64,000 nucleotides of DNA from NCBI RefSeq assembly GCF_000423065.1, contig NZ_AUHG01000011.1, positions 558,001-622,000 on the forward strand. The letters run 5' to 3'. Every line of letters begins with the position of its first letter. Within the stretch, counting starts at the first letter, position 1. The notes under the pieces were generated by a model. It was not told the DNA's origin, searched no databases, and saw only the letters and a list, made by a program, of their open reading frames with translations. Shown in pieces: positions 2,157 to 6,408 of the stretch. The position numbers and the translations under genes were made by a program. The stretch comes from Christiangramia echinicola DSM 19838 (GTDB lineage Bacteria > Bacteroidota > Bacteroidia > Flavobacteriales > Flavobacteriaceae).

Positions 2157-2160
2157 TAGA

Positions 2161-3525
2161 ATGCATACCATAGATATGGATCTGGTAGAAATGACTTTAG
2201 ATGTCATGAAATATACTATAGATCGTATCTCTAATGTTACTCCAGAATTGGGTTCTCCCAAAAAGGAAGAAGATCTATTAAGAATTGTGGGAGAAACCAT
2301 TACTCCTGAAGGGATTGGGGGTGAAAATGCTTTTCAGTTATTCAGGGATGTGCTGGTGAAGGCTACCGTGCCTATAGATCATCCACGACATTTAGCTTTT
2401 GTACCTGCTGCGCCTACTAGGGCTGCCATCATGTTCGATCTTGTAACTTCGGCTTCAAGTATTCATGGGGCTTACTGGATGGAAGGTGCCGGAGGGATAT
2501 TTTGTGAAAACCAGGCAATGAAGTGGCTGGTTTCCCTAACTAAACTTCCTGAAGGTGCTTTTGGAGTTTTTACCAGTGGAGGTACCGCCGCAAACCTTTC
2601 AGCATTAGTTACAGCAAGGGAAGAGTGGAGAGAACAAAAGCCAGATCATGCTAAAGAAAGAGCTTTACTATTAACTTCCACCGGGGCTCATAGCTCAATA
2701 AAGTCTATGGCCAAAGTGATGGATGCAGATGTTCATTTAATAGATTCAGATGAAGAGTTTCTTTCTGGAAAAGAATTAAGCAAGGCGATTAAAAACCTCA
2801 ATGATAAGGATAGAAACCGACTGTTTGCGGTAGTTGCAACTGGGGGGACAACTAATGCCGGGATCATAGATGATCTAAAAGGAGTGGCAGATGTTTGTGA
2901 AAAGGAAAATATCTGGTTCCATGTAGATTGTGCGTATGGCGGAGGAGCGCTGGCTGCAAACTCGGTAAGACACTTATTTGATGGGATAGAAAAGGCAGAT
3001 AGTATAACAATAGATCCTCATAAATGGCTGTTTTCGCCTTATGATTGTGGAGCAGTAATTTATAAGGATCTCGAGCTTGCTAAAAAGGCACATTCTCAAA
3101 AAGGAGCTTACCTGGAGATCTTTAAGGATGAAGGTGCGCAAGGCTTTAATCCTGCCGATTATCAAATTCAGTTAACCCGGCGACTTCGAGGAATGCCACT
3201 TTGGTTTTCCCTGGCTATGCACGGCACCAATAAATATAAAGAAGCTATAGAACGCGGAATTGAGCTGGCGAAGATCGCTGCTGAAAAAGTTAAGGAGAAT
3301 GATAATCTTGAGTTAATGAGACCTGCGAGTTTATCTGTTGTCCTTTTTAAAAGAACGGGGTGGACAGCAGAAGATTATCGTGACTGGACCTATAAAAATC
3401 ATAATTCAGGCTTTGCGCTGGTAACGCCATCTATCTGGAAAGGAGAAAGTGTTGTTCGTTTCTGTTTTATAAATCCAGATACCACAGAGGACGATATAGA
3501 CCAGATATTAGAAACCTTGAATTAG
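2161..3525 (+). CDS. PLP-dependent group II decarboxylase (aromatic/acidic amino acid decarboxylase family)
   Basis: This is a fold-type I PLP enzyme of the pyridoxal-dependent decarboxylase family. Visible landmarks are FTSGGTAANLSAL (phosphate-binding region), the stacking His in TGAHSS (about residue 177), Asp in HVDCAYGG (about 256), and the Schiff-base lysine in DPHKW (about 288). The substrate cannot be told from the sequence; aspartate, glutamate, tyrosine, tryptophan or diaminobutyrate are possible, and some homologues act as aldehyde-releasing or aminotransferase-like enzymes. A TTG at 2146 would extend the frame into bshC, but ATG 2161, just after the bshC stop, is more likely. Its 3' flank was probably once directly next to the SIMPL gene (see the islet at 3531-5709). 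Confidence 0.85.
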   Translation: MHTIDMDLVEMTLDVMKYTIDRISNVTPELGSPKKEEDLLRIVGETITPEGIGGENAFQLFRDVLVKATVPIDHPRHLAFVPAAPTRAAIMFDLVTSASSIHGAYWMEGAGGIFCENQAMKWLVSLTKLPEGAFGVFTSGGTAANLSALVTAREEWREQKPDHAKERALLLTSTGAHSSIKSMAKVMDADVHLIDSDEEFLSGKELSKAIKNLNDKDRNRLFAVVATGGTTNAGIIDDLKGVADVCEKENIWFHVDCAYGGGALAANSVRHLFDGIEKADSITIDPHKWLFSPYDCGAVIYKDLELAKKAHSQKGAYLEIFKDEGAQGFNPADYQIQLTRRLRGMPLWFSLAMHGTNKYKEAIERGIELAKIAAEKVKENDNLELMRPASLSVVLFKRTGWTAEDYRDWTYKNHNSGFALVTPSIWKGESVVRFCFINPDTTEDDIDQILETLN

Positions 3526-3530
3526 ATCTC

Positions 3531-3559
3531 TATCAATCAATTTCATATTCCAGCCTCAT
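3531..3559. repeat. 29-bp direct repeat, left copy (candidate att site)
   Basis: The 29 bases from TATCAATCAATTTC to CAGCCTCAT are identical to 5681-5709, 2150 bp away. The bases just outside differ (C before this copy, A before the other). The right copy codes for the C-terminus of the SIMPL protein, while this one lies 5 bases after the stop of the PLP gene and codes for nothing intact. Confidence 0.9.
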
Positions 3560-3586
3560 AAATAATTTATGAGGTTGTATTATTTT
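3551..3586 (+). terminator. Intrinsic terminator after the PLP decarboxylase gene
   Basis: The arms are 3551-3563 (CAGCCTCATAAAT) and 3565-3577 (ATTTATGAGGTTG), pairing over 13 positions with one G-T wobble, followed by TATTATTTT. The left arm is part of the direct repeat and the right arm belongs to the insert. Confidence 0.65.
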
Positions 3587-3796
3587 AGGAGGTAATTGAA
3601 AATCTATTTTTTGGTTTAAAAAAAAGTGAATAAGGTTGAAATTTCACATTATCAATAAAAACGAGCTTATTTTTTTTAGGCCTAAGAGTGGAATGTTAGT
3701 TCAAATTTCTATATTTATAAGCAATCTGCACTGATGAACTCCCTACGATACCTCAGTACCGATCTAAATTTACATTTTAACCAACCTTAGAATTAC

Positions 3797-5641
3797 ATGA
3801 AATTAGATAGCGTATTGGATCGTTTAGGTTCAATTGAGAAAAACTCATTTATAAAGGTCATTGATAATATCATTTCTCATGACCCTAAAAATTCCAAGCA
3901 AGTAGAAAAAATCTTAAGTTCTGCGGATAAAGGTTTAAAATCAGCTGATAGTGAGAATGTCAAAAAGGTTTTTGAACTAATTCAGGATGAGTTTTATAAA
4001 TGCTTGAAATGTGAATTTCAAGAGACTTCTTCACAATTGGATATCTTGATTGATATCATTACTAGGGATGGGAACTGTATTATGAAATTAGATTGGTTTT
4101 CCAGACTATATGAATCGGAAGTTAAGAAGATCAAGAGTAGGGTTAAGGAGATGGAAAGGTCTATTTCTGATCCTAAATCGGAGCTGTCGATAGAAAGAAA
4201 AAGAGATTATCATATTTATAAATCTTGTCTTGAAACAGCTTACATAAATGATATAGAAAATAATAGGGAAGCAAAAATCACCTCAGATGAGTTATCCATT
4301 GTTTTAACCCTTTCAAATGTATTAGACCTTTCTCAAGAGGAGGTAAAGCTTATAAACTACTCCATATTGCCTATTAAGAAATTAGAGATTCTTGATGTAG
4401 TTAATAATCTTAAAAATATTGGTGTTATTTTCTTCTCCAAGAAAGAGAATACTATATACGTTGCAGATGAGATGGTGAGACTATTAAGAAGGTTAAGAGG
4501 TAAAGATGTAGCAGACAAATATTTGAGAAGAACTCTTAGAATAATGAGAGAGCCTGTAATTAATCAAATATGCAGGACCCATAATATTTCGATTAAAGAA
4601 TCTTTTAATAATAAAATTGAATTAATTATTAAAGAAGGTATCTCATTTAAATCACTACTTGCTGAGGACATTCATAAAAAGAATACAACTCTTACTGAAA
4701 AAAAGAAATATTTGAATGAGGTTGTAGAGAAAGGTCTAGAAATAGAAAACCTTAGAGGCAGTATTTTGGAAGATAAGATTGATAGTCTGATTGAACATTT
4801 TGATCATATTGAAAGAGATGAAAAAATACCTATAGCCCTTGATGGTTATGAGAAATTATTGGCTGAACTTAACAATTCCTTACCTAAACTCAACAAACAA
4901 ATCAGGGATCAATTTGAATTGCAGGAGGAATTTGTATTAAAAGGTGATTTTCTCTTAGATTTCAACATTAAGCCTAGAGATATATTAGATCTAATAGAAA
5001 AAGATGATCTAAAATATTTCATTGCAGAGAATGGGATTAAGCAGCGGGGAAATAATATTTTAAATATCCTTGAACATTACAAAGATGCAGATAATCTCTT
5101 CCTTGAAAACTATGAGAGGGTTGCTTATAGAGACCTAAATGGATTAAAAGAAAATGGTATAACTACTAAGGAAAGTGAACTTGGATTGAAATTCGAAGAG
5201 TTAACTGGTAGAATATTTCAAGAGCTTGGTTTTACCGTTGATGATGGGCTTAAGAATGGTTTAAAATCCAATAAAGATATAATGGATATTATTCTTCACC
5301 TTGATAATGGAGATGTAATCATTGTTGAATGTAAGACAAGTAAAGAAAAAGGGTATAATAAATTCAGTACCGTTTCTAGGCAATTAAAAGCTTATAAGAA
5401 TCAAGTGGAGAAAAAGGAAAAGCGTATTGCCAAAATTCTACTTGTATCACCGGAATTCACAGACGATTTTATTACCGATTGTGAGATGAATGTAGAATTG
5501 AATTTATCATTAATCACAGCTTCATCTTTATTAAAAATTTATAAATCATTTAAGGAGTCTGCTTATCACGAGTTCCCTCATGTTTTATTTCGAGATGTAT
5601 TGATAAATGAAGATAGGATAGTAAAGGCCCTGAGTAAATAA
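3797..5641 (+). CDS. Stand-alone restriction-like nuclease with C-terminal PD-(D/E)XK (FokI/Mrr-like) domain
   Basis: This 614-residue cytoplasmic protein has no signal peptide. The C-terminal domain (about 458-585) has the order of a PD-(D/E)XK nuclease: helix with E467/E468, D494 and D497 in KDIMDIIL, E511-C-K513 in VIIVECKTS, then Q529 and a strand AKILLVSPEF that resembles the FokI cleavage domain. Upstream I see a helical region (about 90-190, perhaps TerB-like), a winged-helix-like stretch (about 193-232), and two SAP-like segments (about 253-282 and 403-428). Charged coiled coil lies between the SAP-like segments. No methyltransferase or specificity gene is nearby, so a modification-dependent or triggered nuclease is more plausible than a classical R-M enzyme. 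Function is inferred; domain calls outside the nuclease core are tentative. Confidence 0.7.
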   Translation: MKLDSVLDRLGSIEKNSFIKVIDNIISHDPKNSKQVEKILSSADKGLKSADSENVKKVFELIQDEFYKCLKCEFQETSSQLDILIDIITRDGNCIMKLDWFSRLYESEVKKIKSRVKEMERSISDPKSELSIERKRDYHIYKSCLETAYINDIENNREAKITSDELSIVLTLSNVLDLSQEEVKLINYSILPIKKLEILDVVNNLKNIGVIFFSKKENTIYVADEMVRLLRRLRGKDVADKYLRRTLRIMREPVINQICRTHNISIKESFNNKIELIIKEGISFKSLLAEDIHKKNTTLTEKKKYLNEVVEKGLEIENLRGSILEDKIDSLIEHFDHIERDEKIPIALDGYEKLLAELNNSLPKLNKQIRDQFELQEEFVLKGDFLLDFNIKPRDILDLIEKDDLKYFIAENGIKQRGNNILNILEHYKDADNLFLENYERVAYRDLNGLKENGITTKESELGLKFEELTGRIFQELGFTVDDGLKNGLKSNKDIMDIILHLDNGDVIIVECKTSKEKGYNKFSTVSRQLKAYKNQVEKKEKRIAKILLVSPEFTDDFITDCEMNVELNLSLITASSLLKIYKSFKESAYHEFPHVLFRDVLINEDRIVKALSK

Positions 5642-5680
5642 TATTACTATTTATAATAGAATTAAAAGTAGTAATAGATA

Positions 5681-5709
5681 TATCAATCAATTTCATATTC
5701 CAGCCTCAT
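5681..5709. repeat. 29-bp direct repeat, right copy (3' end of the SIMPL gene)
   Basis: Identical to 3531-3559. On the minus strand it encodes the last residues of the SIMPL protein (MRLEYEID then stop). The target gene is therefore intact on this side, as expected when an element integrates at a gene's 3' end. Confidence 0.9.
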
Positions 5710-6408
5710 TGTAATTGAGGCTGTTTTGTTTTTATCTGCCGTGTTGTACGCTCCACTCCAGCTGTAATCTTCCCCGCTATTCTGTCCCGTGATCTGAAAT
5801 ACTCCCATATTGGCGCTTTTCAGATCTCCAAGATCTTCACCACTATTTGCTGCAATCTTTTCAGCTCTTAAACGAGCATCTTCCGTAGCTTTTGAGATCA
5901 TCTCAATCTTCAAATCTGCAATCTTTGTGTAATAATATCTTGGAGGAGAAGAGTTGAATTGAACGCCTTTGTTTAAAAGCTCGGTGATCTCCCGGGAAAC
6001 ACCTTCGATCAATTCTACCCTGGCCGATTCAATTTTAATTGGCTGTATTAATTCATAGCCCTTAAAGATGCTACCCGTAAAATTTCCATTTTGATATTGA
6101 TTCTCTCTTTGTTCATTTGTTTGTACCGAATTAAAAACAATATTTTCAGATTTAATGCCCTGGTCTATAAGGTATTTTCTAACGATCTCTTTATCGCGAT
6201 TCAATTGATTATACGCTTCTTCTAAGTTCTCATTCATGCGGCTGAATCTACCTTCCCAAACGATAAGATCTGAAACAAAATTTTCACTCCCAGAACCGGT
6301 TACAGCGATAACTCCGTCTGGGTTGGCTCTGGAGACATAAGAGTTACCCAAATAATAGGCGGCAAGAACAATGGCAATAGAAAATATTATAGCACTAAGG
6401 TATTTCAT
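5683..6408 (-). CDS. SIMPL domain (DUF541) exported protein
   Basis: A 241-residue protein with an N-terminal membrane or signal segment (MKYLSAIIFSIAIVLAAYYL). It is followed by a SIMPL/DUF541 domain: GVIAVTGSGSENFVSDLIVW near residue 32, the central KEIVRKYLIDQGIKSENI, and the late DARLRAEKIAANSGEDLG segment. The family is periplasmic or membrane-anchored with a poorly defined role, often linked to stress tolerance (E. coli YggE). It is divergent from guaA, with an 81-bp gap. Its last eight codons and stop form the right-hand repeat of the nuclease islet, and a plus-strand terminator overlaps its 3' end. Confidence 0.85.
   Translation of the reverse strand: MKYLSAIIFSIAIVLAAYYLGNSYVSRANPDGVIAVTGSGSENFVSDLIVWEGRFSRMNENLEEAYNQLNRDKEIVRKYLIDQGIKSENIVFNSVQTNEQRENQYQNGNFTGSIFKGYELIQPIKIESARVELIEGVSREITELLNKGVQFNSSPPRYYYTKIADLKIEMISKATEDARLRAEKIAANSGEDLGDLKSANMGVFQITGQNSGEDYSWSGAYNTADKNKTASITMRLEYEID
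5701..5733 (+). terminator. Intrinsic terminator downstream of the nuclease gene (overlaps the SIMPL 3' end)
   Basis: The stem CAGCCTCA (5701-5708) pairs with TGAGGCTG (5716-5723) around a 7-base loop, followed by TTTTGTTTTT. It reads on the plus strand, so it now ends the nuclease transcript and would have ended the PLP transcript before the insertion. Confidence 0.75.

Follow-up and report, generated by a model that had tools for sequence, protein, structure and literature searches.

A solitary predicted nuclease gene between two copies of a SIMPL gene tail in Christiangramia echinicola

The islet and its flanking repeat

The window, by which we mean the whole stretch of 64,000 nucleotides of Christiangramia echinicola DSM 19838 that was analysed, contains an intact gene for a PLP-dependent decarboxylase (2158-3525, plus strand; Pfam PF00282, E 2.3e-63) and an intact SIMPL (DUF541) gene (5683-6408, minus strand; Pfam PF04402, E 9.5e-25), and between them a small islet bounded by a direct repeat. 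As an earlier note on this DNA had described, bases 3531-3559 and 5681-5709 are identical at 29 of 29 positions, lie 2150 bp apart and diverge directly outside the match. The SIMPL gene natively ends in the right copy, its stop codon occupying 5683-5685 on the minus strand, and the left copy, which begins 5 bases past the decarboxylase stop (ending at 3525), is by repeat match and junction comparison a second, stranded SIMPL gene tail, consisting of the last codons and the stop on the minus strand. The two copies enclose a leader of 237 bp (3560-3796, plus strand), a gene for a predicted nuclease of 614 amino acids with a C-terminal PD-(D/E)XK (Mrr-like) domain (3797-5641, plus strand) and a right-hand spacer of 39 bp (5642-5680). 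The nuclease is the only ORF of at least 60 aa, in keeping with the note's description of a single-gene islet, and neither a recombinase ORF nor a methyltransferase is present. The GC content is 30% in the nuclease and 27% in the leader, against 42% in the decarboxylase gene and 38% in the SIMPL gene, and a genus-wide search with the leader gave other matches in 9 genomes of 24 (own included), the longest covering 42 query bases.

At up to 3 mismatches the 29-mer occurs just twice in its own genome, at the two positions given, with no third copy, and the reading of it as a dispersed repeat was rejected on this count. Local alignment of the upstream and downstream flanks of the islet scored 63, compared with a maximum of 28 in 60 shuffles. 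We further scanned 860,000 bases of the contig (927,778 in all) for maximal exact direct repeats of at least 20 bp spaced 300-8000 bp apart and found 17, three of which are at least 29 bp long; of the other two, one (62 bp) lies inside a repeat-rich ORF and one (30 bp), in a 339-bp periodic set, looks alike. When the ~26 bases that follow the left copy were compared with 16 SIMPL tails, four of these (L004, L005, L006 and L013) gave shuffle fractions of 0.012-0.025, while the other 12 gave at least 0.158 and the window's own tail 0.434, values which are only suggestive of a repeat that may be ~55 bp long with a diverged second half.

Each copy is accompanied by a terminator-like hairpin. A native 8-bp hairpin with a T tract (5701-5723, plus strand) lies at the SIMPL end, where several congeners have a comparable one (one of -11 kcal/mol or stronger at 10 of the 15 congener loci). 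The other, a 12-bp hairpin followed by a T-rich tail (3551-3577, plus strand), lies across the boundary of left copy and insert. Its stability was equalled in 3 of 5000 trials when random pieces of the islet were placed at the edge and in 1 of 5000 when the real edge was shuffled. Because a stable hairpin straddles its edge, the left copy is not simply 29 bp joined to random sequence; a diverged SIMPL tail would have arrived with the incoming DNA, or else selection would have preserved a terminator at the left edge.

The decarboxylase-SIMPL junction in the genus

We compared 24 genomes of the genus (own included), 16 of which have a SIMPL match, and obtained a usable junction from 15 relatives, in all of which the decarboxylase gene adjoins the SIMPL gene. 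The junction is empty, with 2-7 bp between the genes, in seven of them (G001, G003, G005, G011, G013, G017 and G022), and in these the SIMPL tail is single-copy; it is occupied, with 106-1069 bp, in the remaining eight (G002, G006, G007, G008, G010, G016, G018 and G023). The SIMPL gene of G006 (L016) is interrupted and was matched just in part, so that its junction distance is rough. In the window the outer spacing, from the decarboxylase stop to the SIMPL stop of the left copy, is 7 bp, a distance shared by the empty junction of G001; together with the hairpin at each copy, this agrees with the suggestion that collapsing the repeat would leave a convergent pair sharing one terminator. The nuclease itself is present in one of the 24 genomes, two of which are less than 75% complete, contrary to an arrangement in which all relatives would carry it here. 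Judged from these comparisons, the islet was genuinely acquired, at a junction that varies among relatives.

The earlier note had further expected that related strains would show empty sites, or other cargo between the same repeats. Empty sites and differing content were both found, whereas a SIMPL-tail repeat around other content was not: in the eight other inserts a copy of the SIMPL tail never scored above shuffles, and a copy of the decarboxylase tail did so once, at 25 against a maximum of 23 (L012). Among these inserts, G007 (L013), G008 (L004), G010 (L003) and G018 (L005) carry related junction ORFs (114-150 aa) whose N terminus is signal-like and which by eye are SnoaL/DUF4440-like, and G010 (L003) and G016 (L002) have in common a minus-strand junction peptide of 44-47 aa with a hydrophobic end.

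The nuclease and its other loci

The Mrr_cat profile scored 20.8 bits on the nuclease, against a cut-off of 21. Alignment of 16 nucleases gave a mean column identity of 78%, with E467, D497, E511-x-K513 and Q529-x3-Y533 invariant, residues which we take to be the PD-(D/E)XK and QxxxY motifs. In its C-terminal nuclease domain the islet protein is like the single-gene PD-(D/E)XK nucleases (Mrr-type, Shedu SduA); unlike them it has no system assignment, and its N-terminal ~430 residues are poorly modelled and without family assignment (mean pLDDT of the fold model 61.5, weak outside residues ~430-614). A fold search returned weak matches, R.BspD6I2 and SduA among them, none at E ≤0.001, and a sequence search of solved structures returned a single match, to a ribosomal protein, at E 0.86. 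The best PADLOC match had an E value of 1.5e-3 over a short stretch only, and neither PADLOC nor NCBIfam assigned the protein to a system. The phage protein family phrog_34709, of unknown function, matches the nuclease (3797-5641) over its full length at E 7e-113, and its members may come from prophages; carriage by a phage was rejected, as tblastn against 50,697 phage records and a scan of viral contigs gave no relative.

Nuclease matches at E ≤0.001 were found in 27 of 397 genomes of the family (24 near full length, own included), and scanning genome contigs yielded 18 loci, of which 17 are near full length. We assembled the window, 23 loci from the family genomes and 17 from the contig scan into a set of 41 loci whose nuclease DNA is distinct throughout. 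The closest homologue among those listed, at 74%, is from Salinimicrobium, a near genus. In aligned upstream regions from 29 of the 41 loci no clear common block was seen that would correspond to a conserved leader. In two Mesonia and one Salegentibacter (L046, L047 and L049) the nuclease lies between a SIR2-type gene and the gene preceding adenylosuccinate lyase, and a flank repeat is absent. A survey of proteins of 100-700 aa within 2.5 kb, at most four per locus, yielded 139 neighbours from 39 loci; 22 PADLOC models matched at 1e-10, each in one or two of the 139 proteins and two of them exonuclease-type DEDDh, and the Pfam families were mostly housekeeping (25 of 101 listed). We therefore treat a role of the nuclease as a solitary defence gene as putative.

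By comparing flanks inside each locus, we found copies of other genes' tails at three further loci, L068, L069 and L080, of about 60+148, 228 and 404 bp. At L068 (G216) the order is a full AraC gene, three genes, a ~60-bp copy of a TraB-like tail, a 148-bp copy of the AraC tail, the nuclease and the full TraB-like gene, with the two tail copies abutting within about 2 bp. In a relative, G384, the AraC and TraB-like genes converge across ~350 bp that hold a small ORF. The AraC copy differs from the full gene at 5/2/3 sites by codon position, mainly at the start of the copy and with no third-position bias, and the three substitutions of the TraB copy, which also has gaps, all fall at third positions. 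At L080 (G329) a 404-bp copy of the upstream gene's tail, 82.5% identical, lies between a 472-aa gene and the nuclease, with coding differences of 8/4/19 by codon position (17 codons synonymous, 11 otherwise; p = 0.0013 against one third); in its relative G131 a different gene follows that upstream gene. The L080 copy would therefore have evolved as coding sequence, as if taken from a donor's working gene, which does not appear to hold for the L068 AraC copy.

L069 (G395, L093-L094, about 3.577-3.601 Mb) is unlike a plain flanking pair, being a local six-copy array in which the nuclease is one unit and six tail-copy matches are spread over 23 kb. By eye, the array lies downstream of an mnmE-like gene and consists of one- or two-gene units parted by integrase-like 3' ends; it looks like a cassette array, with no full-length integrase beside the nuclease. 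L053 has a 54-bp repeat (96%) 4.7 kb upstream of the nuclease, and L045, L057, L071, L073, L082 and L084 likewise have repeats near the nuclease. Three loci were not taken as bearing scars, the excess over shuffles being too small (L049, 37 against 31; L079, 33 against 32; L074, a tie).

By one fixed test, a flank repeat was present in 6 of the 41 nuclease loci (the window, L057, L068, L069, L071 and L080) and not found in the other 35, compared with 9 of 242 when other genes of the window's own contig were tested (Fisher p = 0.012) and 20 of 131 when genes from the nuclease loci were, many of these lying in the same arrays; the test was picked after the cases had been seen, and the excess is modest. 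Six of the nine own-contig matches, in four places, proved to be paralogues or repeats between genes, with no tail copy next to a lone cargo gene among them. The homologues occupy differing sites, and a shared att-like repeat was not found across the 41 loci, in which repeats differ in gene and length or were not found.

Possible routes of acquisition

Having found an insertion with empty counterparts in relatives, a tail copy with a hairpin over its edge, and copies of neighbours' tails beside three homologues, we propose, at about an even chance, that illegitimate or short-homology recombination joined two versions of the same gene junction. A resident empty decarboxylase-SIMPL junction would have recombined with incoming DNA in which the nuclease stood beside a SIMPL tail. 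One end would have joined inside the resident SIMPL tail, through a short homology or an illegitimate joint, and the other would have been restored by ordinary recombination in the SIMPL gene or beyond, leaving the resident tail stranded on the left and giving rise to the 29-bp repeat. The incoming molecule, its route of uptake (transformation or other) and the order of the joins are all inferred. The chimeric tails of L068, the third-position divergence of L080 and the varied lengths of the copies would fit such joining of junctions and sit poorly with a cassette that has one fixed att site.

In the congener G008 the first 27 SIMPL-side bases are identical to the window, so a donor's tail could match, though a donor junction, with the nuclease next to a SIMPL tail, was not found. 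The nearest relatives of the window are G016 and G023 for the two genes left of the islet and mainly G008 and G018 for the three on its right, with near ties between relatives further out. The right-half tree places the window's genome with G008 and G018 (89/87) and rejects its grouping with G016 and G023 (p 0.027); the left-half tree places it with G016 and G023 (62/81) and does not reject G008 and G018 (p 0.108), so that any left/right discordance would be weak. Speaking against fusion are the lack of third-position bias in the L068 AraC copy, the similarity past 29 bp, which is not significant against the window's own tail, the flank repeats seen at other genes of the nuclease loci as well, and the 35 of 41 loci in which no such repeat was found. 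Transformation is a possible route of uptake: ComEC and DprA family genes are present in the genome, and natural competence is reported, in the portions available of the published accounts, for Riemerella (Flavobacteriaceae), together with its absence from Flavobacterium johnsoniae under the same conditions.

Among known patterns, the islet matches best one described for restriction-modification genes in Helicobacter pylori (Nobusato et al. 2000) under the name "insertion with long target duplication", with target duplications termed "long and variable" in the available parts of the sources (PMC1643837, PMC3031569, PMC4978471). As in those insertions, insofar as these sources describe them, a nuclease-type gene sits in the chromosome, flanked by a direct repeat of the target and with no transposase; relatives with an empty site are found here as well, whereas restriction-modification cargo is not. 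The islet differs in its phylum, in its cargo, a solitary predicted nuclease without a methyltransferase, and in its doubled target, a gene tail with a terminator. Applied to the window, the SIMPL tail would have suffered a staggered break, for which the nuclease itself may have been responsible, and filling-in around a captured nuclease fragment would have doubled 29 bp. This would explain the perfect 29/29 identity with differing flanks, the single-copy SIMPL tail at the seven empty junctions and a cargo that is itself a predicted nuclease, but the DNA following the left copy is not random (1-3 of 5000 for the hairpin over the copy edge) and tail copies elsewhere are longer, chimeric or diverged, and we consider this course of events possible though unlikely.

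The earlier note had offered site-specific insertion of a cargo moved in trans, or a decayed remnant, as explanations; for a site-specific element moved in trans we found no support: the 29-mer is a neighbouring gene's tail, the eight other inserts at the junction show no copy of it above shuffles, and homologues elsewhere are bordered by other genes' tails of other lengths or by no repeat. In its fuller form, a circle with a SIMPL-tail att site would have been integrated by a recombinase acting in trans and kept SIMPL intact, as with elements that use gene 3' ends. The intact gene with its end doubled, the terminator regained at the edge, nine phage-integrase-family matches elsewhere in the genome and the integrase-tail array around one homologue (L069) would all suit it; we nonetheless regard it as decidedly improbable, given an islet without recombinase, the absence of a common att-like repeat from the 41 loci and of the window's repeat from all eight other inserts, and a nearest same-contig integrase match ~131 kb away. 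Least probable of all is an ancestral arrangement, with the nuclease lost from relatives, or a local rearrangement, with the repeat arising by later duplication, which would need no transfer and would accord with the nearest listed homologue (74%) lying in a near genus, but which the empty sites, the left spacing equal to that of an empty site and the lack of the nuclease in the other 23 genus genomes (two below 75% completeness) make very doubtful.

The fusion of junction versions has partial counterparts in published work. Homology-facilitated illegitimate recombination is the proposed origin of the strings of stranded 3' regions at Vibrio T6SS and Rhs loci (PMC5361080), which, as far as the available part of that source goes, share with our proposal one homologous anchor, one illegitimate joint and older gene ends left stranded; those are effector/immunity modules, whereas in the islet the cargo gene is unrelated to the flanking genes whose tails accompany it, and anchor and joint are inferred. 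Integrase-free hotspots, attributed to recombination in the core genes around them (PMC5635113), and minimal mobile elements (PMC1538595), as these sources present them in part, likewise hold varied genes between the same conserved neighbours with no integrase, but double homologous recombination alone leaves no doubled tail. A description of such fused gene-tail copies was not found in a literature search of partial coverage. To these systems L068 and L080 add chimeric tails and one tail that seems to have evolved as coding sequence, both of which bear on the mechanism.

The window together with L068, L069 and L080 offers concrete junctions, empty sites and tail copies by which the competing mechanisms for the entry of single defence-like genes into chromosomes without an integrase may be told apart. 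We would venture, with little confidence, that the solitary nuclease genes of the Flavobacteriaceae build up as alternative versions of the same gene junction are fused head to tail, with neighbouring genes' tails and terminators acting as seams and the stranded tails recording successive captures made without any mobile-element enzyme. A stray copy of a neighbour's gene tail is a simple signature to seek in other genomes.
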